A stretch of 64,000 nucleotides of DNA from Pseudomonas baetica (lineage in GTDB: Bacteria; Pseudomonadota; Gammaproteobacteria; Pseudomonadales; Pseudomonadaceae). Position 1 is the stretch's first letter, and every line of letters begins with the position of its first letter. The stretch lies in NCBI RefSeq assembly GCF_002813455.1, contig NZ_PHHE01000001.1:1426001-1490000 (forward strand), written 5' to 3'. Below are positions 20,992 through 59,200 of the stretch, piece after piece. A program made the position numbers and the translations under genes. A model generated the notes under the pieces. The model made no database searches. It was given only the letters and a program-made list of their open reading frames with translations, and was not told the DNA's origin.

Positions 20992-22605
20992 GTGTCGATC
21001 AAACTGCGTTTAGTGTTGCTGATTGTTACCAGTCTGCTGACAGCCTTGATAGTGAGTCTGGTCAGCTACGTGGGTAATCTGCGGATGGCGTCGGCGGTCA
21101 GCGACAACGCAGTGAGCATGAGCGCGCTGCGCAATCACATGGAAGCCGACATGATGCACGACGCCCTGCGCGCCGATGTCTATTCGGCGCTACTGGTGGG
21201 GTTGGGCAAAAGCACCAGTTCGGCGACCGAGGTGCGTGATTCGATCAATGAACACGCGGGACACTTTCGCGAAGTGCTCGATGACAATCTCAAATTGCCG
21301 GTCAACCCGACGTTGCGCTCGGCGCTGGAACAGATCAAACCGAGCCTCGACACTTACATCGACACGGGCGAGCGGATTGTCGGACTGGCGCTGGACAGCC
21401 CGGAAACGGCGCAGCAACAACTGGGCACCTTCAACACAGCGTTCAGCCAGCTCGAAGAACAGATGGCGGCGTTAAGCGAATTGATTGAAACCAATACGCG
21501 GCAGACCAGCCAGGGCACGGAAACGGCGATCCGCAATGCCAACATCGCCCTTGGCGCAGTGCTGATCGTCAGTCTGCTGTTATTGCTGGCACAAGGGCGC
21601 TGGGTGATGTCGAGCATCCTCGGGCCGCTCAGATCCGCCAGTCGTATTGCCGAGAGCATCGCCCACGGCAACCTCAGCGAACCGATTGCCGAGCCCTCCG
21701 GCAAGGACGAAGCCAGCGTATTGATTCGCACACTGGCGACCATGCAGCGCGATCTGCGCGACATGATTGATGTGGTGCGGCGCAACGCCCACGGCGTCAG
21801 CGGCATGAGCGAACAACTGAGCCACGGCTGCCACCAGGTCGCCGACAGCAGCCAGCAGCAAAGCGTCGCGGCCGGCACCATGGCCGCTGCCGCGAGCGAG
21901 ATGACCGCGAGCATCGAGGAAATCACCCGGCATGCCGAACGTGCACTGGGCATGGCCAATCAGGCCGAATCATTGGCCAAAAATGGTGGGCAGGTGATCC
22001 ATCAAGTGGTCAGCGACATGGACGATATCGCCCGTTCGGCGCAACAGTCGGCGCAGGTGATCCGCACGCTGGATCAGGAATCAGAAGCCATTTTCAACAT
22101 CATCCAGGTGATCAAGAGCATCGCCGACCAGACCAACCTGCTGGCACTCAACGCCGCCATCGAGGCTGCCCGGGCGGGCGAGCAGGGCAGGGGGTTTGCG
22201 GTGGTGGCGGATGAAGTGCGCAGTCTTGCCGCCCGTACCAGCGCTTCAACCCAGGAAATCGCCGCGATGGTTGCGCGCATTCAGCACAGCACGCGCGAGG
22301 CGGTCAGCAGCATGGAGGCCGGGGTTGCGCAGGTCGACAAGGGCATGGCGGTGACAGCTGATGTTGAACGGGCGATTCGCGAGATCCTTGAGGCCACATT
22401 GAGCACCACGCAACTGGTCAACGACATCACCCGCACCATTGGCGAACAGAGTCAGGCCAGTAACGAGATTGCCCATCAGGTGGAGATGATTGCGGGGATG
22501 TCCGAAGGCAATAGCCGGGTGATCGGGCAGACGGCGAATACCACGGATGAGCTGTCGAGCCTGGCGGGGCAGTTGGCGCAGTCGGTGGATCGGTTTCGGT
22601 TGTGA
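20992..22605 (+). CDS. Methyl-accepting chemotaxis protein
   Basis: Transmembrane chemoreceptor of 537 residues. TM1 is at about 5-27, a four-helix-bundle-like periplasmic sensor runs to ~180, TM2 is ~186-207, then a HAMP domain and a long cytoplasmic signalling hairpin with the invariant tip [20 protein letters not shown] followed by [16 protein letters not shown]. The start is a GTG at 20992 because AGGGAG lies 10 nt before it; the in-frame GTG at 20971 has no ribosome site. The sensor ligand is unknown. No C-terminal CheR-tether pentapeptide is seen (the protein ends SVDRFRL). Confidence 0.95.
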
Positions 22606-22658
22606 ATATTATTCGTAAGCAAACTAGCTGATTTTTTCACCGCCGCCACTTTATCGAT

Positions 22659-23156
22659 TTAATCGATTTGGACCGTTGTCTGTATGTCCAGGCGGAAGTT
22701 GTAGTGCCTGGAAAAACGCCTTTTCAGCACATTATTAATTTCTACGAAGGGCGCTTTTTTTCTGTTACATACATAAGCTTTTTTGGGGCTGTGGTTGATC
22801 AGAAACTCTTCACCGTGCGTAGCAAGCAAAAACTCGATAGTCGACTCTAGTTGATCGAGTGCGTGGCTTTGCCAATTACTTCGCCCCCAATCCTTTAGCT
22901 CTATGAGGTACATCGCAGCATCGGTGGTGAGCATGCAGTCGCAGCGTCCTCGACCAGCCTCCTCGTGGTCTTTGATGACGCACTTGTCGATTGCTGTAAA
23001 AGTGACACGCTTTCGACTCGGGTTTTTTACAGTGGCGATCCACTGTTCTCGATGATTGAGAGCAACGTAAGCGACTTCTGAGGGTTGATCGTCGCAAAGG
23101 CCAAACTCTAGATCGTCGAAGGGGCCTGTCTGGCACTCGCTATCGAGAAAATTCAC
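22659..23156 (-). CDS. PD-(D/E)XK-like protein coupled to an AAA/ABC-type ATPase
   Basis: A 165-residue protein with a likely restriction-endonuclease-type core: D73 in GRCDCML, a beta strand, then E86-x-K88 in YLIELKDW, and a helix with Q102 (ALDQLESTIEF), the order of PD-(D/E)XK motifs II, III and IV. Upstream acidic residues E65/E66 could complete motif I. It is the second gene of a two-gene unit: its ATG overlaps the ATPase stop by 4 nt, implying translational coupling and a complex. It is AT-richer than its surroundings. Nuclease activity is inferred from motifs only; a DNA- or RNA-binding non-cleaving role is possible. I do not recognise a named system with this pair. Confidence 0.75.
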   Translation of the reverse strand: MNFLDSECQTGPFDDLEFGLCDDQPSEVAYVALNHREQWIATVKNPSRKRVTFTAIDKCVIKDHEEAGRGRCDCMLTTDAAMYLIELKDWGRSNWQSHALDQLESTIEFLLATHGEEFLINHSPKKAYVCNRKKAPFVEINNVLKRRFSRHYNFRLDIQTTVQID

Positions 23157-24400
23157 GCCTCCAGTTCCTCCTCGATATCCAGGAGACGATCAAACATGTC
23201 ATTGCCTTCGCGAAGCGACTCGTTGAGATAATTGCTATCAGAAGGAATACCTTCAGCCATTGGCAGCTTTGCAATGCTTCCTGTCTTTTCATCGGCTTGG
23301 TAGATAGCCAGATCATCTGCATCAAGCAAGACTTGCAGGGGAATTACATTGGCAAGCTTGGCGATCAGGCTACCATCACGAGTTTTTTTCAGAATATTGT
23401 CGTAGAGCTGTTTGCCTTGCACTGCAATGGTCAGGTAATTCACTACATAAGGGCTGTGGGTCGTCAGTACTAACTGGTTGTTAGCGCCTTGATTGCTAAT
23501 CTCAAGAAGGCTTTGCAGAACGCTCCATTGTGAGGTTGGGTAGAGATTCTGCTCAGGCTCTTCGACAATGTTGATGAAAGCCGTCTTGTTGAATTGCTTG
23601 GAAAGCGTAGATATCAACGCACGCTGCTGTTCGATGGTCAGATTCTCGGTGAGAAGCTTTGAGGTCTCTTTGCGGAACCGCTCCAACTCTTTGGAACTCA
23701 TCGTGTCCGGTCGGTGAGCTATGGGCTCAAACACGCGTTTGGCCAGGTACTGACTCACCAAGTGAAGGGGGACGGCAGATTGGAAGCCGCTGGAGGCGTC
23801 AGCCAACTCCAGCGTGTAGGCGGACTCACTGATGCTCAAAGTGTTTTTGAGCAGATCGTATTTGAGATCAGCATTGTTAATCGGGAGAGAAAGGGAGCCT
23901 TTTATGTTTTCCTTTGCGTAGTTAAATTCTGCTAGGAACTCTGTAAGTGATGGGGAGTAGAGCCGTAGCTCCTCAGGATTCTTCAGATAGGAAATGAAGT
24001 TTCGCTCGGCAGGCACATACATGATCTGAGGCAGGTGATATTCCTTTGCCTTGGACTTGGTGATGTGCATTTGGCCTCGAGCGTACTTGATCGTGAAAGC
24101 ATCACCTTCGTAATCGATTTCTGTTTTGTTTCTCTGATCGGCTGAAACGTAGTTTTCTAGCCGGTGGTAGCTCAGAAATGTTTTTGTGAGTCGATCATTT
24201 TCCTCGAACCAGCTTTTATCGTAATCACCGCGTTCCAGGGCTTTTTCGATCCATGAAAAGGTCGAGTAAAGCTTGGCTAACGTGCTTTTTCCTGAGCCCT
24301 GATTACCCACGAACACGGTCACGCGCTTGAGCTCTATCCAGCCATTGTTTTTCACACCATCACGGATAGGGCCAAAGTGCTTGACGCGTAGGCGAGGCAT
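23153..24400 (-). CDS. AAA15/RecF-like ATPase, first gene of a putative defence pair
   Basis: A 415-residue ATPase of the AAA_15/AAA_21 (OLD/RecF/PtuA-like) group. Walker A is VGNQGSGKST (31-40); the ABC-type signature is ASSGFQS (202-208); Walker B is AFINIVEEPEQNLYP with E280-E281; the H-loop is LVLTTHSPYVV with H315. There is no C-terminal TOPRIM domain, unlike OLD nucleases. The short tail after ~350 (VLLDADDLAIYQADEKTG) is typical of ATPases that work with a separate effector. It is transcribed leftward with the PD-(D/E)XK-like gene (4-nt overlap). Low GC and lack of chromosomal partners suggest horizontal transfer; the architecture resembles ATPase-plus-nuclease anti-phage systems (Septu-, PARIS-like), without matching one I can name. 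Confidence 0.88.
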   Translation of the reverse strand: MPRLRVKHFGPIRDGVKNNGWIELKRVTVFVGNQGSGKSTLAKLYSTFSWIEKALERGDYDKSWFEENDRLTKTFLSYHRLENYVSADQRNKTEIDYEGDAFTIKYARGQMHITKSKAKEYHLPQIMYVPAERNFISYLKNPEELRLYSPSLTEFLAEFNYAKENIKGSLSLPINNADLKYDLLKNTLSISESAYTLELADASSGFQSAVPLHLVSQYLAKRVFEPIAHRPDTMSSKELERFRKETSKLLTENLTIEQQRALISTLSKQFNKTAFINIVEEPEQNLYPTSQWSVLQSLLEISNQGANNQLVLTTHSPYVVNYLTIAVQGKQLYDNILKKTRDGSLIAKLANVIPLQVLLDADDLAIYQADEKTGSIAKLPMAEGIPSDSNYLNESLREGNDMFDRLLDIEEELEA

Positions 24401-24522
24401 TGATTACTCCAAAAGGTTGAGCACATACGGTAATGCTGTGAAGCATATCAGGGAGAGGGGTAAAGGGGAGGCGCAAATGAAACCGGATGTGGAACGAGTG
24501 AAGCCTGATGTCATGGCCAGTG

Positions 24523-24556
24523 AAAAGCTCTGCCCGCTTCCATTGGCAGAGCTTTT
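24523..24556. terminator. Bidirectional rho-independent terminator
   Basis: A perfect 12-bp stem (AAAAGCTCTGCC / GGCAGAGCTTTT) with a 10-nt loop; A-tract on one side and T-tract on the other. It ends the leftward DUF4440-like gene and shields the ATPase operon that starts ~120 nt further left. Confidence 0.85.
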
Positions 24557-24564
24557 CGTATCAA

Positions 24565-24996
24565 TCAGAATTTGAACGCCTGCCGCCCCACCAACAACCA
24601 CTTGCCATTCTGCTTCTGCCAGATCTGGAAGTTCTCGATCTCGGTCGGCACCACTTCAGTGCCCTTCAGCGCCTGCGCGGAAAAGTGGTGACGCACCAGC
24701 GCGGTGTCGCCGGACAGGGTGATGGTCTGTTTTTGCATCTCCAGGGTCTTGAACGCGCTTTTGCCGGTTTCGATGTCGGCGATGAATGCTTGTTTGTCCT
24801 GAATTTTGCCGCTGGAGTGGCCGTAGGTGAGGTTTTCGGCCGTCAGCGCATTCAATTCGGTGATGTCTTTGTGCAGCATCGCCTGGGTCAGATGATCGAC
24901 CGCTTGGGCAACCTGCTTTTCCGCCGGGGCAGGGGCGGCCATCGCGTAACCGCTGAAGGCGCAGAGAAAGCCGATCAGGAGTCGGGTCTTGGTCAT
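24565..24996 (-). CDS. Secreted NTF2/SnoaL-like protein (DUF4440 type)
   Basis: A 143-residue protein with a signal peptide (MTKTRLLIGFLCAFSGYAMA) and an NTF2-like fold of the DUF4440 type (VDHLTQAMLHKDITELNALT, ENLTYGHSSGKIQDKQAF, NFQIWQKQNGKWLLVGRQAFKF). The start at 24996 follows AAGGAAAT. Such proteins bind or turn over small hydrophobic molecules, but no substrate is known. It is monocistronic, ending 9 nt before a strong terminator. A 10-bp inverted repeat lies 28-73 nt upstream of its start. Confidence 0.85.
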   Translation of the reverse strand: MTKTRLLIGFLCAFSGYAMAAPAPAEKQVAQAVDHLTQAMLHKDITELNALTAENLTYGHSSGKIQDKQAFIADIETGKSAFKTLEMQKQTITLSGDTALVRHHFSAQALKGTEVVPTEIENFQIWQKQNGKWLLVGRQAFKF

Positions 24997-28357: not shown

Positions 28358-28936
28358 CTAGCCGAGTGCCTCTCCTGAAGGCCAGCCACTCACCCGCGCA
28401 TTCGATCCACCCGCCGGATCCGCCGGATACACAATCAACGAGTGGCCATTACCGGCCTCGGCGATGAGCTTGCTGGCCGGGCCGAAGATCGCGGCGCGTT
28501 CCTGCGGTGTGCAGGTGGGCAGGTAGACGCGCAGCACTCTGGGATCGTAGAAACGAAACACCAGAAGGTTGCCATCGGCATCGGTGACGCGCAGCAGGGT
28601 GCGGAAGTGGCCGCGCAAGTCGTCCAGCGCCACCTGCGCAGGAGCCATCACGAAACAGCCCCAGCTCTGCCCCCAGCTGTCCTCCAATATCTCCCAGGTG
28701 TAGGCCTGCTGCGGATCGAGATGCAGCAGATAGGGCGCCGCTGCAGACAGGCTTGGCGCGAGTTCGCCCGCATACAGGCAGGCGAACTCAGCCTGGCTAT
28801 TGCGCACCAGCGATTCGATGCGTGGATCGCGAGCGCCGTCGAGCAAGGCGTAGACCTTCGGGGCGTCCGGGCGCGAACCCTGGGGCCAGAATTCGGCGCT
28901 GAACCATTCACGAAGGCTGGGGCGGAACTGGGTCAT
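28358..28936 (-). CDS. DUF4123 protein, T6SS effector adaptor
   Basis: Adaptor of the DUF4123 (Tap/TEC) family, which loads a specific toxin onto VgrG of the type VI secretion system; 192 residues. The family blocks YALLDGARDPRIESLVRN, PYLLHLDPQQAYTWEILE, WGCFVMAPAQVALDDLRGHF and FRFYDPRVLRVYLPTC are visible. The start overlaps the vgrG stop codon by 4 nt. DUF4123 genes are normally followed directly by the effector gene, but here ~420 nt without a recognisable effector gene lie between the stop and the leftward terminator at 27910. Confidence 0.9.
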   Translation of the reverse strand: MTQFRPSLREWFSAEFWPQGSRPDAPKVYALLDGARDPRIESLVRNSQAEFACLYAGELAPSLSAAAPYLLHLDPQQAYTWEILEDSWGQSWGCFVMAPAQVALDDLRGHFRTLLRVTDADGNLLVFRFYDPRVLRVYLPTCTPQERAAIFGPASKLIAEAGNGHSLIVYPADPAGGSNARVSGWPSGEALG

Positions 28937-31062
28937 TTGTTGCAGATCTCGCAGAACGGCACGCCGGTTTTAGCGGCTGTTACCAAGGTTTGCGCTTGCA
29001 GGTCCTGCTGAAGAAGTCGGGTCTCGGCAACCCTTGGCGCAGCAGCCTGCGAGGCCTTGGCCGTGACCGTTGCCAAGGGCGCGGGCGTGTTGAGCGGTGC
29101 GCTGGCGAGTTTCTTTCCGGCAACATCGGCATCGGCGGGCGTCAACGCTATCGGCAGTTTGATCGCGATCCCGGTTCCCACCCCCGGCGCACCCCCGGTA
29201 TTGATCTTCACTTCCGCCCCGCTGATGGTCACACCGCCAGCATCAACCTTCACAAAACTCCCACCAGCCTTGGCGGTCAGCTCCATGCCGCCCTCAACCA
29301 CAACCTTGTCGCCCGCGTGGTAATGAATCTCCGTCCCGGCCTCGACAAACTGCGCCGTGCCCACTTTCACATGCTGGGTCACACCGACTGTCAGGTGATC
29401 ATCCGCGCGCATCTCACTGATACGATCCAGATGCGTAATCCGGTGCTCTTCCACCTTGAACTCGCTCAGGGTGTTGGCTTCAACCGTGTCATGCCGCTCA
29501 TTGCCGACCCGAATCTTTTGGTCGTGCTCGATGTTTTCGTCCCAATCGCGCTGGGCGTGGATGTAGATCTGTTCCACACCCTTTTTGTCTTCGATGCGGA
29601 ATTCGTTGTAGCCCTTGCCGCCCGGTGAGCTGAGGGTTTTGAAGGTGCTGCGGGTCTTGTTGGCCGGCAGGTCGTAGGGGACGACGTTTTCCTTGTGGTA
29701 CAGGCAGCCGGTGACGAGTGGCTGGTCGGGGTCGCCTTCGAGGAAGGTGACGAGGACTTCCATGCCGATGCGCGGGATGGCGATGCCGCCGTAGGCGGCG
29801 CCGGCCCAGCCGCTGGCGACGCGCATCCAGCAGGTGGTTTTGTCGTCGCCCTGGCCGTCGCGGTCCCAGTGGAACTGGACCTTGATGCGGCCGTATTGGT
29901 CGCAGTGGATTTCTTCGCCTTTCGGGCCGGTGACGATGGCGGTCTGGCTGCCGAGGACTTTCGGTTTCGGGTGTTCGAGGGCAGGGCGGTAGTGCGCGTC
30001 CCACGGGGTGGCGAGGAAGCTGTTGCGGTAGCCCTGGTGGAAGTCGCTTTTGTTGTCGGTGACGTCGCTGGTGACGTTTTCGCCGAGCACTTGCGGCTGT
30101 TTGCCTTCGTGGAAGACTTCCAGCAGCAGCCACATATCGTTCCACTCGGCGCGCGGGTGTTCGGCGAGGGTCAGGAAGTGGCCGCTGGTGAGGGTCGGCT
30201 CGTCACCTTTGCCTTCGGCGAGTTTGTAGTCGCTGCGATGGCGTTCCAGCGCGCGGGTGGTGAGGAACTTGCCGCGCTCGCGTGTGGTGAAGCGGCCGGG
30301 GTAGTCGTAATCCTCAAGGTCCGGGGCGAACTCGGATTTGACCGCGCCTTCGGGCAGGATCTTCGGTTTTTCGAAGTCGTAGTCGCGGCGGCTGACGCGG
30401 GTGGTGCGGGTTTCCAGGCGCAGGTTGAAACGCTTGATCACCGGTTTGTCGGCGCTCATGCCGGAGTCTTGCTGGTAGCTCACGGCCTTGAGTTTGCGGA
30501 ACACCGTTTGGTCGTCGCCGAACACCAGTTTGTGGCCGCTGCTGCTGTGCTGGAAGTGGAAGTGAATGCCTTCCTCTTCGCACAAACGCTGGATGAAATG
30601 CAGGTCGGATTCGTCGTACTGCACGCAGTAGTCGCGCTCCGGGTATTCGGCGCTGAGCTGGAAGCTGTAGGCGTCGGCAAGGATGCCGCGATCTTCCAGC
30701 ACCCGGGCGATGATCTTCGGCACCGTGAGCTGCTGGAAGATCTGCTGGTCGTGGTTGTGCCGCAGGTACGCCAGTTGCGGCACCAGGCTGATGCTGTAGC
30801 GGGTCAGGGTCTTGCCGGAGTCACCTTGCTCGATGCGATAGACCAGGCCATGAATCTTGCCTTCGCCGGTGGCGCCGAAGGTCAGCACGCCGGGCTTGTG
30901 CAGCAGCTCTTCGAGTTTCAGGTCGGGACGGGCGCTGACCAGTTCTATCTCGAACCGGAAAGGCTGGTTGAGTGCCTCGCGACCTTCAAAGCTCAACACT
31001 TGCAGGTCGGTGGACGCTGATTCGAGCGCGAAGCTGATGTGGGTAGCGTTTGCATCCAGCAT
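28933..31062 (-). CDS. vgrG: VgrG spike protein of a type VI secretion system
   Basis: Trimeric spike that tips the T6SS tube and carries effectors out of the cell; 709 residues. It shows the gp27-like part (LSFEGREALNQPFRFEIEL, CVQYDESDLHFIQRLCEEEG), the OB-fold hub (GEEIHCDQYGRIKVQFHWDR, WMRVASGWAGAAYGG, GMEVLVTFLEGDPDQPLVTG) and a repetitive gp5-like needle (HYHAGDKVVVEGGMELTAKA). A ~90-residue tail beyond the needle is Ala/Pro-rich and ends in FCEICNK; it is too short to be a toxin domain but may dock the adaptor. The start at 31062 follows GGAAGGAG. It is an orphan vgrG: no core T6SS genes are in the window. Confidence 0.95.
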   Translation of the reverse strand: MLDANATHISFALESASTDLQVLSFEGREALNQPFRFEIELVSARPDLKLEELLHKPGVLTFGATGEGKIHGLVYRIEQGDSGKTLTRYSISLVPQLAYLRHNHDQQIFQQLTVPKIIARVLEDRGILADAYSFQLSAEYPERDYCVQYDESDLHFIQRLCEEEGIHFHFQHSSSGHKLVFGDDQTVFRKLKAVSYQQDSGMSADKPVIKRFNLRLETRTTRVSRRDYDFEKPKILPEGAVKSEFAPDLEDYDYPGRFTTRERGKFLTTRALERHRSDYKLAEGKGDEPTLTSGHFLTLAEHPRAEWNDMWLLLEVFHEGKQPQVLGENVTSDVTDNKSDFHQGYRNSFLATPWDAHYRPALEHPKPKVLGSQTAIVTGPKGEEIHCDQYGRIKVQFHWDRDGQGDDKTTCWMRVASGWAGAAYGGIAIPRIGMEVLVTFLEGDPDQPLVTGCLYHKENVVPYDLPANKTRSTFKTLSSPGGKGYNEFRIEDKKGVEQIYIHAQRDWDENIEHDQKIRVGNERHDTVEANTLSEFKVEEHRITHLDRISEMRADDHLTVGVTQHVKVGTAQFVEAGTEIHYHAGDKVVVEGGMELTAKAGGSFVKVDAGGVTISGAEVKINTGGAPGVGTGIAIKLPIALTPADADVAGKKLASAPLNTPAPLATVTAKASQAAAPRVAETRLLQQDLQAQTLVTAAKTGVPFCEICNK

Positions 31063-31176
31063 TGCCTGACTCCTTCCGTGGAAAGCTTTGCGGATGGTGC
31101 AGGAATACCAAAGTGCTATCAAGGAGTTTTAAACGAGGTTAAACGCCAACATTAAACTCGAATTGCCGTGCAACGC

Positions 31177-52767: not shown

Positions 52768-54051
52768 ATGAAACAGCAACACGTAAACAGCTACTACGCC
52801 GCCACCCGCAACGAAGTCATCGACTTCCCGATTCTGGAAGAAGCGGTGGACTGCGATGTCTGCATCATCGGCGCCGGCTACACCGGCCTGTCCTCGGCAC
52901 TGTTCCTGACTGAAGCCGGCTACAAAGTGACGGTGCTGGAAGCGGCGAAAGTCGGCTACGGCGCCAGCGGCCGCAACGGCGGTCAACTGGTCAACTCCTA
53001 CAGCCGCGACGTCGACGTGATCGAAGAGCGCTACGGCGACAAGACCGCCGAAATCCTCGGTAGCATGATCTTCGAAGGCGCCGACATCATTCGTTCGCGC
53101 ATCAAGGACTACGACATCAAATGCGACTACCGCCCGGGCGGCATCTTCGCAGCGATGAACAAGAAACAACTGAATGGCCTGGCCGAGCAGAAGAAAAACT
53201 GGGAACGCTACGGCAATCGCAATCTGAAGATGCTCGACGCTGCGGACATTCGCAGGGAAGTCGGCTCCGACGCCTACGTCGGCGGCCTGCTCGACTTGCA
53301 GGGCGGCCATGTTCACCCGCTGAACCTGGCCCTCGGTGAAGCCGCCGCGATCACGCGTCTGGGCGGGAAGATCTACGAGCAATCCGCTGCCGTGGAAATC
53401 ACCTACGGCGAGCCGAATGTCATCCGCACCGCCAAAGGCCTGGTACGCGCCAAGTACCTGCTGATCGCCGGCAACGCTTATCTGCCGCAAGGCCTCGACA
53501 ACCGCGTGACCGCGAAAAGCATGCCGTGCGGCTCGCAAATCGTCGTCACCGAACCGTTGACCGAAAAGCAGGCACGCAGCCTGATCACCAACAACTACTG
53601 CGTCGAAGACTGCAACTACTTGCTGGATTACTACCGCCTCACCGCCGACAACCGTCTGCTCTACGGCGGCGGCGTGGTCTACGGCGCGCGTGAACCGGAC
53701 GACATCGAACAACTGATCCGCCCGAAGATCCTCAAGACCTTCCCACAGCTCAAGGACGTGAAAATCGACTACCGCTGGACCGGCAACTTCCTGCTGACCA
53801 TGTCACGCATGCCGCAATTCGGCCGCATCGAGAAAAACGCCTACTACATGCAAGGCTACAGCGGCCACGGCGTCACTTGCTCACACCTGGCCGGCAAACT
53901 GATCTCGGAAATGATCCGCGGCGACGCCGAACGCTTCGATGCGTTCGCCTCGCTGCCGCACATGCCAATGCTCGGCGGCCGCACCTTCTCCGCACCGCTG
54001 ACAGCCCTCGGCGCCGTCTACTACTCGCTACGCGACCGCTTCGGCCTCTAA
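52768..54051 (+). CDS. puuB: Gamma-glutamylputrescine oxidase (FAD)
   Basis: DAO-family flavoprotein of 427 residues that oxidises gamma-glutamylputrescine to the aldehyde, giving ammonia and peroxide. The FAD motif is VCIIGAGYTGLSSALFLTE, followed by ASGRNGGQLVNSYSRDVD. The C-terminal block YMQGYSGHGVTCSHLAGKL is also typical. The ATG at 52768 (MKQQHVNSYYAATRN) is used because CGGAGAAC precedes it. Follows puuC by 52 nt. Confidence 0.92.
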   Translation: MKQQHVNSYYAATRNEVIDFPILEEAVDCDVCIIGAGYTGLSSALFLTEAGYKVTVLEAAKVGYGASGRNGGQLVNSYSRDVDVIEERYGDKTAEILGSMIFEGADIIRSRIKDYDIKCDYRPGGIFAAMNKKQLNGLAEQKKNWERYGNRNLKMLDAADIRREVGSDAYVGGLLDLQGGHVHPLNLALGEAAAITRLGGKIYEQSAAVEITYGEPNVIRTAKGLVRAKYLLIAGNAYLPQGLDNRVTAKSMPCGSQIVVTEPLTEKQARSLITNNYCVEDCNYLLDYYRLTADNRLLYGGGVVYGAREPDDIEQLIRPKILKTFPQLKDVKIDYRWTGNFLLTMSRMPQFGRIEKNAYYMQGYSGHGVTCSHLAGKLISEMIRGDAERFDAFASLPHMPMLGGRTFSAPLTALGAVYYSLRDRFGL

Positions 54052-54115
54052 GTTACCTCCCCGGCGGCGGCCCCAAGACCCCGCCGGTTTTTACCTGATA
54101 CACCAAAACTCTAAT

Positions 54116-54711
54116 TGTGGGAGCTGGCTTGCCAGCGATGACGGCCTGACAACCTCCACAAAGCCAACTGACACAAAAGAGATCCAACTGTGGGAGCGAG
54201 CCTGCCAGCGAAGAGGCCAGCCCAGCCACCATCCCTCCCACAGAAACACCACAAACCCTGTGGGATTCTGGCTTGCCAGCGATGACGGCCTGACAACCCC
54301 CACAAAGCCAACTGACACAAAAGAGATCCAACTGTGGGAGCGAGCCTGCCAGCGATGAGGCCAGCCCAGCCAACATCCCTCCCACAGAAACACCACAAAC
54401 CCTGTGGGAGTCTGGCTTGCCAGCGATGACGGCCTGACAACCTCCACAAAGCCAACTGACACAAAAGAGATCCAACTGTGGGAGCGGGCCTGCCAGCGAA
54501 GAGGCCAGCCCAGCCACCATCCCTCCCACAGAAACACCACAAACCCTGTGGGAGTCTGGCTTGCCAGCGATGACGGCCTGACAACCTCCACAAAGCCAAC
54601 TGACACAAAAGAGATCCAACTGTGGGAGCGAGCCTGCTCGCGAAGAGGCCATATCAGCCAACATCCATGTCGCCTGACACACCGCTTTCGCGAGCAAGCC
54701 CGCTCCCACAG
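54116..54711. repeat. 144-bp tandem array of decayed REP pairs (~4 units)
   Basis: The marker GATGACGGCCTGACAAC occurs at 54137, 54281, 54425 and 54569, exactly 144 nt apart. Each unit holds two REP-like arms (TGTGGGAGCGAGCCTGCCAG and CTCCCACAGAAAC) in which the normal GCTCGCGAA core has become GCCAGCGA. The last unit ends in an intact REP pair (54621-54711). Units differ by a few substitutions and one single-base indel in the first. Because 144 is divisible by three and the unit has few stop codons on the minus strand, long overlapping minus-strand frames arise; these are judged not to be genes. The rest of 54052-54900 is the puuR promoter region. Confidence 0.9.
54621..54711. repeat. Intact REP inverted pair at the end of the array
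   Basis: TGTGGGAGCGAGCCTGCTCG and its complement, head to head with a ~40-nt spacer. It shows the ancestral form from which the 144-bp units have diverged. Confidence 0.88.
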
Positions 54712-54900
54712 TCACTGTATTACCAAGGCAAGAAAGACTTTTCCCCCACCACCCATCGAACCTGCTGAGCAACACCAGCAAACGTGATTTAATAGCCGCC
54801 TTTCACGGTTCCGGGACACGGGAGCAACGTGATCCGCGCCCCGGCGCGTCACCCGCCACCCACCCCCATCACCCTTAAGTACTCTTCACATAAGGCAGTC

Positions 54901-55557: not shown

Positions 55558-56151
55558 TTATATAGGCTCTAAGATATCCATGAAGATTTCTTTTAGTGCT
55601 TTGTGGTCGGTGGTGTAGGCGCTTATGTTAGCTGATATCCACTGGTCACTGTCTTCTTGCCAGCGAATCGAGTACTTTGCATCTTGCGCAATATACTCAA
55701 ACAGAATTCTCTGTGTTCGGCCGTTGCCTTCACGAAATGGGTGAATGATATTCAGCTCGCCATAATGGTAGGCAAGGCGATCAGCAGTATCTTCCAAGCT
55801 CCAGAATTTTTCCTTATTCTGAAAGTCGAGATTTATAGCTTGAAAAATTTTCAGCGCTTCGGCTTCGATGCGCTCTGGAGCACAAAATCGGGTGGTTCCT
55901 TTCCATATGCCAACTAGACGGAGCTCTCCAGCCCATTGATAGAGGGACGAAAAAAGGGTTTTGTGGATATATTTCATCGTGGCAAGGCTGTAGGGGCTTT
56001 TTTGCTCGCTTATCAAAGCGATATTGAGCTTGGTGGCTTCGCGCTCAGCAACCTCCAGTTCGTTAATGTCGGTGATGTCTTTAATGTTTTTGAGGCAGTC
56101 GGTACCTTTTATGAGATAGGGGTCGCTTTCAGAGATTTGATATCTGTCCAT
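55558..56151 (-). CDS. Fic-domain AMPylating toxin
   Basis: Fic protein of 197 residues. The active site is HPFREGNGRTQR (residues 137-148), the full HPFx(D/E)GNGRxxR motif with catalytic H137, and YSLATMKYIHKTLFSSLYQW upstream forms the flap region. Such short Fic proteins (FicT, VbhT type) transfer AMP to DNA gyrase/topoisomerase IV and stop growth. No internal inhibitory motif is seen at either end, so it depends on a separate antitoxin, encoded by the gene that ends 2 nt upstream. Clearly AT-richer than the core genes, so probably acquired. Confidence 0.9.
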   Translation of the reverse strand: MDRYQISESDPYLIKGTDCLKNIKDITDINELEVAEREATKLNIALISEQKSPYSLATMKYIHKTLFSSLYQWAGELRLVGIWKGTTRFCAPERIEAEALKIFQAINLDFQNKEKFWSLEDTADRLAYHYGELNIIHPFREGNGRTQRILFEYIAQDAKYSIRWQEDSDQWISANISAYTTDHKALKEIFMDILEPI

Positions 56152-56153
56152 AG

Positions 56154-56645
56154 TTAATTGTTCTCCAGAATAATACCTTCCAGCTTGGAGCTGGCTATAA
56201 AATTTCGCACCTTGTTTTTCTCAAAAATCGACTGGGCGCTGAGTTCGTCTGGAGACGAAAAAAGCCGCAGCATATCCAGTAGCATCTTCGTAACGGTGGA
56301 TTTCTTTTTTCGGTTTGTAGGTCGGCCAATCTCTTTTGCGATGAGTTCTTGAAAGGTATAGACGTCAACGCTGCTACCTTTCCAGGTATCATTTTCAATG
56401 TACGTGTTTATGTCTGCTGGATGTCGTCGCGTCCATGCGGTCACTGATTTGATTAATCTCTGCGCTTCCCTATGGGTCTGGCACTGAAAGTTAGCGCCGA
56501 ATGTAGATTTCAGTAATTTATTGATTTGCGCAATGCTTATTGATTCCAAGCGAGGGTAGTCACTAGAGAGAAGTATTTCCTTGATTTCATCAGATTGTGA
56601 ATTCACGATATTTTTTGGCCTGGTCACGTTCGCATTCAGATTCAA
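56154..56645 (-). CDS. Fic antitoxin with C-terminal SxxxEG motif and long N-terminal domain
   Basis: A 163-residue protein upstream of, and 2 nt from, the Fic toxin gene. Its last residues FIASSKLEGIILENN contain S152-x3-E156-G157, the (S/T)xxxE(G/N) inhibitory-helix motif by which class I Fic antitoxins block ATP binding. Known antitoxins of this class are only ~60-70 residues, so the preceding ~135 residues (ISIAQINKLLKSTFG, THREAQRLIKSVTAWTRRHP, TFQELIAKEIGRPTNRKKK) form an extra domain of unknown function, perhaps for DNA binding and autoregulation. Antitoxin-first order is normal for autoregulated systems. Confidence 0.8.
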   Translation of the reverse strand: MNLNANVTRPKNIVNSQSDEIKEILLSSDYPRLESISIAQINKLLKSTFGANFQCQTHREAQRLIKSVTAWTRRHPADINTYIENDTWKGSSVDVYTFQELIAKEIGRPTNRKKKSTVTKMLLDMLRLFSSPDELSAQSIFEKNKVRNFIASSKLEGIILENN

Positions 56646-57868: not shown

Positions 57869-59200
57869 ATGCGTCTGGCTCGGGCACTGGAACTCACCCA
57901 CAACTTCGTCTCGACTCCCAACTCCCTCGAAGGGTTGGACTCGTTGCTTGATCCATCTCTGGTCGAACAGGCATTGGAGCAGGCCGGTGTAGCCACTTTG
58001 CGCAGGCGACGCTTACCTTTGGAAATGATGCTTTGGTGCGTCATCTCCATGGCGTTTTTTCGACGCATGTCGGCGTGGGATGTGGTCAGTCGCATGAACA
58101 TCATGCTGCCTGGGCAACGTCCGCTGGTCGCGCCCAGCGCCGTAGTCCAAGCCCGTCAGCGGCTGGGCAGCGAGGCCGTACGACAAGTCTTCGATCTGAC
58201 TCAGAAAAGCTGGCATGAAGCGGCCAGTCATCCGACCTGGGCCGGGTTGCGCTTGCTGGGTGTCGACGGCGTCGTCTGGCGTACGCCCGATACACCGGAA
58301 AACCGTGCGCGTTACGACTCCGCCAGCAACCAGCATGGCGATACTGGTTTTCCTCAGGTGCGCATGGTTTGCCAAATGGAATTGACCAGTCACTTACTGA
58401 TTGGCAGCGCGTTTGACGGCTATCGCAGCAACGAGATGAAACTGGCGGAGCAACTGATCGAAACCACCCCCGATCACTCGCTGACGCTGTTCGATCGCGG
58501 CTTTTATTCCTTGGGGTTGCTGCATCAATGGCAGCAAGCAGGCATCGAGCGACATTGGTTGATGCCGCTGAAAAAAGGCTCGCAGTACGAAGTGCTTCAG
58601 CGTTTGGGGCGCCACGATGCTGTGGTCTCGTTGAGTACTTCGCCGCAGGCCCGCAAGCAATGGCCTGGATTGCCGGAGCGCCTGACTGCGCGGCTTCTGA
58701 GCAAAACCGTCAAGGGCAAGGTTTGTCAGATACTGACGTCGATGGCCGACTCATTACGCTTCCCGTCCGACGAAATCGTCGATCTCTACAGCCAGCGATG
58801 GGAGATCGAGTTAGGGTTTAGAGAAATGAAGCAGACCCTGCTGAACAGCAGCTATACGCTGCGCAGCAAGACGCCCGAAATGATTGAGCAGGAACTGTGG
58901 GGCGTGTTGTTGGGCTACAACCTGTTGCGTTATCAGATGGTGGAGATGAGCCGCCATTGTCCAGGCATCCATCCATGCGAACTGAGCTTCACCGCGTGCA
59001 CTTGGGCGATCTTGGGGTTTATCAACGGCGTTTCTGCGGATCGTTCGGGGAACATCCCCAAATATCTCGCAGAGTTGCATGCCTCAGCCCCGCATTATGT
59101 CCTGCCACATCGACGCGAGGAGCGCATTTATCCTCGGGCAATCAGGCTCAAATCGCCGAAGTATCCGATCAAAAACAAAAATGCCAGTCAGCTTAACTGA
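57869..59200 (+). CDS. IS4-family transposase
   Basis: DDE transposase of 443 residues, apparently intact. The DDE residues fit [13 protein letters not shown] (first D), [14 protein letters not shown] (second D) and the YREK-type block [19 protein letters not shown] (E), as in IS4. An N-terminal ~100-residue domain precedes it ([20 protein letters not shown]). The start at 57869 has no ribosome site because a hairpin and U-tract occupy the place, so translation may be deliberately weak. The right end has another strong hairpin (59181-59207) just before and over the stop. Confidence 0.93.

Follow-up and report, generated by a model that had tools for sequence, protein, structure and literature searches.

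Introduction

The closest tested system to the operon described here is WonAB of Vibrio cholerae, an ABC ATPase paired with a PD-(D/E)XK nuclease that was validated in 2025. According to the available text of that report (PMC12137116), residues of both the ATPase and the nuclease are required, those of WonA being Walker A K34, E300 and H333; infection is aborted with genomic DNA intact and translation stopped, and toxicity of the nuclease depends on the presence of an active ATPase. The same text names PD-T4-4 as a similar operon. A Septu system is described as cleaving tRNA-Tyr (PMC13096335, in excerpt), and prrC as embedded in a type I restriction-modification (RM) locus, where it senses RM inhibition (PMC12707154, in excerpt). 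We analysed a two-gene operon in a 64,000-nucleotide stretch of the Pseudomonas baetica genome (contig NZ_PHHE01000001.1, positions 1,426,001 to 1,490,000; hereafter the window). It encodes an ABC/OLD-type ATPase (A) followed by a small PD-(D/E)XK-like nuclease (B). By profile the pair is PDC-M29, a family that is already catalogued and of a kind recently validated in WonAB. The pair is real and well conserved, and probably a defence module. On balance we think it likely that it forms a compact two-gene anti-phage operon, probably acting by abortive infection, in which an ATPase sensor would license a nuclease.

Results

A and B match a catalogued candidate family

A is encoded on the minus strand at 23153..24400 of the window (415 amino acids) and B on the same strand at 22659..23156 (165 amino acids, GTG start). 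Against PADLOC-DB 2.0.0, A matched PDC-M29A over residues 1-412 of 415 (E=1.8e-176, 585.4 bits) and B matched PDC-M29B over residues 1-164 of 165 (E=1.5e-59, 198.8 bits). Both profiles were matched over their full length and far above other families, the runner-up for A being AriA at 59 bits, and no difference from PDC-M29 was seen. An earlier interpretation made from the DNA alone, the sequence-only reading, had called the pair undescribed and had named a match of both proteins to an already named system as the finding that would speak against this. Both proteins do match PDC-M29A and PDC-M29B, and 'undescribed' has to be given up, though PDC-M29 is only a candidate entry. In the available text of PMC12988326, PDCs are putative defence candidates that came out of a guilt-by-embedding screen, with experiments lacking for most; embedding is the route by which they were discovered and not a criterion for profile membership. 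The label alone proves nothing, because two other PDCs gave no defence when tested in their native host (PMC12409345, in excerpt). The name 'PDC-M29' is unmentioned in the 5.39 million open full texts of PubMed Central, a collection that leaves preprints, subscription papers and supplements outside the search, and no experiment on this family was found there. DefensePredictor validated 13 PD-(D/E)XK systems, which the available text lists under its own names (PMC13092281).

The anatomy of the pair was largely as the sequence-only reading had described it: both open reading frames (ORFs), the 4 nt shared by the stop of A and the start of B (23153-23156, GTGA), the ATPase motifs and the four putative nuclease residues were all in place. 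A contains a Walker A motif at G32-T40 (GNQGSGKST), an ABC signature (ASSGFQS, with S204-G205), E280-E281, H315 and a conserved C-terminal stretch at about residues 358-407. The Walker A lysine, given as K39 before, is correctly K38. In B, D73, E86, K88 and Q102 were verified by residue index.

A and B are paired and conserved across distant phyla

Two conserved motifs of B were scanned over genome contigs, with one genome per species, which gave 53 loci in records labelled Pseudomonadota, Bacteroidota, Chlorobiota, Spirochaetota and Desulfobacterota. A lay directly upstream of B on the same strand in 53/53, which bears out the co-occurrence that the sequence-only reading had singled out as worth checking. 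A is interrupted by a contig end in loci L011 and L030, and 50 complete pairs were used for residue and spacing counts. Internal stops were found in A of L046 and in B of L048, and in L032 a stop falls one codon short of the end of the aligned stretch of A. With the start of B set at the first aligned codon, the spacing between the genes was -4 nt in 17 pairs, +2 nt in 21 and -1 to +24 nt in the other 12; all but one, at +24, lay within -4 to +5 nt (49/50). The distance matrices of A and B were correlated (r=0.52, the top of 1000 permutations being 0.29).

The putative catalytic residues of both proteins are nearly invariant. K38, S204, G205, E280, E281, H315, N393 and D404 of A were kept in all 50 complete pairs and T40 in 47; in B, E86, K88, Q102, R71, C72 and N131 were kept in 50/50 and D73 in 49 (Glu in L050). 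D73, E86, K88 and Q102 were also invariant columns in an alignment of 35 sequences (B of the window and 34 of the 120 homologues listed), which argues that the motif of B is not due to chance. Both genes are under purifying selection, with ratios of nonsynonymous to synonymous substitution (dN/dS) of 0.09-0.13 for A (3/8 comparisons) and 0.05-0.12 for B (2/8 comparisons), the remaining comparisons being saturated. The overlapping genes, the small nuclease and the near-constant spacing would also suit a toxin-antitoxin pair, in which B is a toxin merely sequestered by A with no sensing of phage. We regard this as improbable, since a sequestering antitoxin would not need the K38, E280, E281 and H315 that A keeps in every complete pair; the toxicity of the WonAB nuclease, dependent on an active ATPase in the available text (PMC12137116), likewise argues against it.

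The reverse search, from A to B, was small because A was present at E<=1e-60 in only 6/398 sampled Pseudomonas genomes; the same six carry a strong B alongside. At E<=1e-40, A was present in 1/369 genomes of a class-wide sample, namely its own. The pair is rare in plasmid and phage records. A further Pseudomonas locus, L066 (G101:C2:115000-126000), gave a weak B-like profile match (E 2.8e-9) with no PDC-M29A at E<=1e-60, and tblastn of A and B against that stretch gave no match; it may hold a distant relative of B with another partner.

A is nearest to PtuA in fold, and B is modelled as a PD-(D/E)XK-like nuclease

In a structure search with A, PtuA of Septu and retron systems was closest; the top PtuA rows ranked over Rad50/SMC rows and other PtuA rows tied with them. 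Among sequence profiles, the NCBIfam PtuA profile scored 35 bits against a cut-off of 500, PADLOC PtuA gave a partial match (E 1e-10), and the PD-T4-4_A profile matched the Walker B/H-loop part of A (E 4.7e-7). As the sequence-only reading had held, no TOPRIM family was found on A in Pfam.

The AlphaFold2 (AF2) model of B was confident (pLDDT 94, pTM 0.91). D73 precedes a strand at 74-77, E86 and K88 lie on a strand at 82-88, and Q102 is in a helix at 95-120, such that both sequence counts and placement in the model give the D...(D/E)xK active-site pattern on a strand pair. Pfam PDDEXK_9 was matched by 17/35 B members at E<=0.01; B of the window scored 19.6 bits, under the curated cut-off of 25.5. 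A structure search returned weak matches (best Z 5.8), the leading neighbours being what we take to be PD-(D/E)XK-fold nucleases. Scans of B with Pfam, PADLOC and NCBIfam gave no HNH family, and those with Pfam and PADLOC no TOPRIM/DUF4435 family; a sequence comparison with McrC was negative. The PADLOC profile, residue conservation, model and PDDEXK_9 matches thus point to a small PD-(D/E)XK-like nuclease, an assignment for which motif and layout count more than the fold score. The fold proposed for B by the sequence-only reading gains from the confident model, the layout and the PDDEXK_9 matches; the structural matches remain too weak to settle it.

An ATPase and a nuclease of these kinds could instead restrict DNA directly, with A recognising or loading on phage DNA and B cutting it at no cost to the host, in the manner of McrBC or Mre11-Rad50. 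This seems somewhat unlikely to us. The best PtuA rows stand over Rad50/SMC for A, although others tie, and the comparison with McrC was negative; WonAB, the tested analogue, leaves genomic DNA intact in the available text (PMC12137116).

Some copies are embedded in type I RM operons

In 13/53 loci, as a raw count, the next gene after B is HsdR-like, lying within 300 bp on the same strand. Ten of these 13 also carry hsdS upstream of the pair, six of them together with hsdM; in another two loci, hsdM or hsdS is the sole type I RM gene within reach. Any type I RM gene was thus found in the fetched stretch of 15/53 loci and none was detected in 38/53. This single-round search, with seeds drawn from the loci themselves and checked by Pfam and PADLOC, may miss divergent RM genes. 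Neighbours were also scanned by profile, covering 82 ORFs on the strand of the pair (of 83 such among 122 listed; loci L008-L054). The commonest PADLOC families were type I specificity (up to 8) and restriction subunits (up to 6), and the commonest Pfam domains were the SWI2/SNF2 and ResIII helicases (11 each) and Methylase_S (8). The embedded loci include HsdR proteins of the EcoEI type as well as of the HSDR_N type, which suggests more than one embedding event. One locus (L008:4395-13052) has the order hsdM-hsdS-GmrSD_N protein-A-B-hsdR, stacking a GmrSD-type restriction gene and PDC-M29 in one type I RM operon.

That other copies lie inside such operons points to defence. It also raises a special form of the proposed mechanism, in which the pair, like PrrC, would monitor a type I enzyme and be triggered only by a phage inhibitor that disables it, the solitary Pseudomonas copies guarding in trans or being re-tuned. 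The hsdR genes after B, mostly with hsdS upstream, and the type I RM genes within reach in 15 loci favour this, as does the precedent of the RM-embedded, inhibition-sensing prrC (PMC12707154, in excerpt). In a genome-wide RM search of the six Pseudomonas carriers, HSDR_N was matched in 4/6, which would allow guarding in trans, EcoEI_R_C in 2/6 and neither in 2/6. The last two weigh the other way, as do the 38 loci whose fetched stretch yielded no gene of type I RM, and the match to HSDR_N in the genome of the window is modest (36 bits, cut-off 25.1; open frame 373 amino acids), with no match to EcoEI_R_C. Embedding can moreover arise as RM operons acquire and lose cargo genes. On these grounds we consider such a guardian role unlikely. 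The copy in the window is not embedded in a known defence system, its neighbours being chemotaxis, NTF2-like and LigD genes.

Pseudomonas copies share a site at which alleles may have been exchanged

Nine of the ten Pseudomonas copies fetched (the window, L002-L007, L064 and L065) occupy the same site between a chemotaxis gene and an NTF2-like gene; the tenth, L013, is at a different location. The NTF2-like gene was present in 67/149 genomes of a sample, from which its 30 best locations were retrieved. Three of these, the window included, carry the pair; in 12 the flanks adjoin with 40-184 bp between them, one has a different sequence of 856 bp there, and the remaining 14 were not judgeable or otherwise arranged. 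The segment missing in those 12 relatives corresponds to 22606..24564 of the window (1959 bp), between the stop of the chemotaxis gene at 22605 and that of the NTF2-like gene at 24565. No repeats were found at the ends of the insert. Allele divergence at this site is uneven: compared with the window, B of L002 is 97% identical and A 83%, and in L005 and L006 A is 84% and 82% identical and B only 59%. The simplest reading of these identities is that recombination reshuffled nuclease and ATPase alleles at the Pseudomonas site, with unequal rates as the alternative.

A single chromosomal site in nine of ten copies, together with rarity in plasmid and phage records, could also indicate a housekeeping or DNA-repair pair unrelated to phages. 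This is very improbable for an AT-rich pair that is present in so few of the 398 sampled Pseudomonas genomes, embedded beside RM genes in some loci and found in distant phyla.

Composition, flanking features and other genes of the window

The sequence-only reading had noted an AT-rich pair amid GC-rich genes, and the G+C content (GC) agrees: 48.2% for A and 48.4% for B against 59.5% for the window. At third positions GC is 57% in A and 54% in B against 76-78% in three neighbouring genes. The nearest relatives of both A and B are from Pseudomonas; the genome of the window is 6.9 Mb. Ahead of A, a leader of about 50 bp is well conserved (24401..24453, minus strand), with many invariant columns in nine aligned Pseudomonas copies, among them the motif CCCTGATATGCT...GC...ACCG. 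It is annotated as the operon leader, with a ribosome-binding site and a possible promoter or operator. A sigma-70 consensus scan gave no minus-strand site in the leader, and two sites in the whole region against 2.0 expected. Between the operon and the NTF2-like gene, an inverted-repeat search found a perfect 13-bp hairpin (I1, 24522..24557), possibly the terminator of the NTF2-like gene; it is absent from the terminator-scan listing.

Farther away, an AT-rich island (44-50% GC at 55-57 kb) holds a gene for a Fic-domain-like protein (55558-56645, minus strand; motif HPFREGNGR by eye) after a same-strand gene for 163 amino acids, which together look like a Fic-type toxin-antitoxin pair. Also by eye, a 443-residue protein like an IS4-type transposase lies beside this island (57869-59200, plus strand), ORFs with repeated peptide units on both strands at about 54050-54790 suggest an array like that of repetitive extragenic palindromes (REP), and a VgrG-like type VI secretion spike gene (28933-31122, minus strand) is followed by a gene for 192 amino acids.

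Discussion

Supported directly are the pairing of the two genes, their conserved active sites, the fold of A, the layout of B, the RM embedding of some loci and the patchy, single-site distribution in Pseudomonas. The WonAB and Septu precedents make it most likely that PDC-M29 aborts infection through a nuclease licensed by its ATPase, RNA being the likelier target. From here we infer dimerisation, complex formation, sensing, nuclease target and abortive outcome. A would dimerise via its nucleotide sites and serve as sensor and holder of the licence, binding B, probably by its conserved C-terminal stretch, and keeping it idle. An infection cue would then shift the ATP state of A, upon which the A-B complex would become an active nuclease; its substrate would most likely be RNA, for instance tRNA, with translation coming to a halt, and less likely DNA. 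For pairs flanked by hsdS and hsdR, disturbance of the surrounding restriction system may serve as the cue; the copy in the window, with no RM neighbour, would respond to another cue or guard in trans.

With a constant pair in the loci seen and clear catalytic residues, PDC-M29 moves from a catalogue name to something open to experiment, for which the WonAB analogue predicts a phenotype and type I RM embedding predicts a trigger. RM embedding and allele exchange are the parts that justify experiment. In the most far-reaching version, which strikes us as doubtful, the two proteins of PDC-M29 together guard restriction: having entered the gap between hsdS and hsdR repeatedly in distant phyla, they would act, probably against tRNA or another RNA, once a type I system is blocked. 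A quite different enzyme would then fill a PrrC-like role, and in Pseudomonas its nuclease alleles would have been exchanged separately from the ATPase. If the guardian idea were true, it would mean that restriction systems across phyla had turned to nucleases with no relation to one another for one and the same back-up function.

How, then, does PDC-M29 compare with described systems? The sequence-only reading had proposed an ATPase plus PD-(D/E)XK-like two-gene module with a defence-type profile, and this description holds, given the pairing in all 53 loci, the confident model of B and the RM embedding elsewhere. It had also considered the partner unlike those of Septu, PARIS and Gabija; for a partner of this type, the available text on WonAB (PMC12137116) provides a precedent. 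WonAB, taken here together with the 'OLD-ABC ATPase + novel REase' (restriction endonuclease) operons, is likewise described there as a two-gene operon of an ABC/OLD-type ATPase and then a small PD-(D/E)XK nuclease. The accessions given there are AWB73975.1 for WonA and AWB73976.1 for WonB, with SHI83489.1 and SHI83462.1 also listed. We equate K34, E300 and H333 of WonA with K38, E281 and H315 of A; under this correspondence the Lys-to-Glu distance is 266 residues in WonA versus 243 in A, the two being likened by description and not by alignment. The lysine of the Won nuclease is K71, compared with K88 of B. A search of viral contigs with the Won primer pattern gave no match.

The other relatives differ in the partner or in its arrangement. 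A is nearest in fold to PtuA of Septu and retron PtuAB systems, but falls far under the NCBIfam PtuA cut-off, and PtuB is an HNH protein, whereas the partner in PDC-M29 is PD-(D/E)XK-like. In PARIS (AriAB), AriB is a TOPRIM/DUF4435 nuclease, a family that the Pfam and PADLOC scans did not find on B. Gabija and OLD proteins have TOPRIM fused to the ATPase, unlike A with its 415 residues. PD-T4-4 shares with PDC-M29 a profile match to part of A, but PD-T4-4_B is not among the three PADLOC matches of B. With PrrC the likeness is one of genetic setting, ATPase and nuclease functions placed inside hsd operons: hsdR follows B in 13/53 PDC-M29 loci, and 10/53 have hsdS ahead of the pair as well as hsdR behind it, although the window does not. 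PrrC is a single polypeptide with a HEPN-type RNase, whereas PDC-M29 divides its functions between two genes and appears to use a PD-(D/E)XK-like nuclease.
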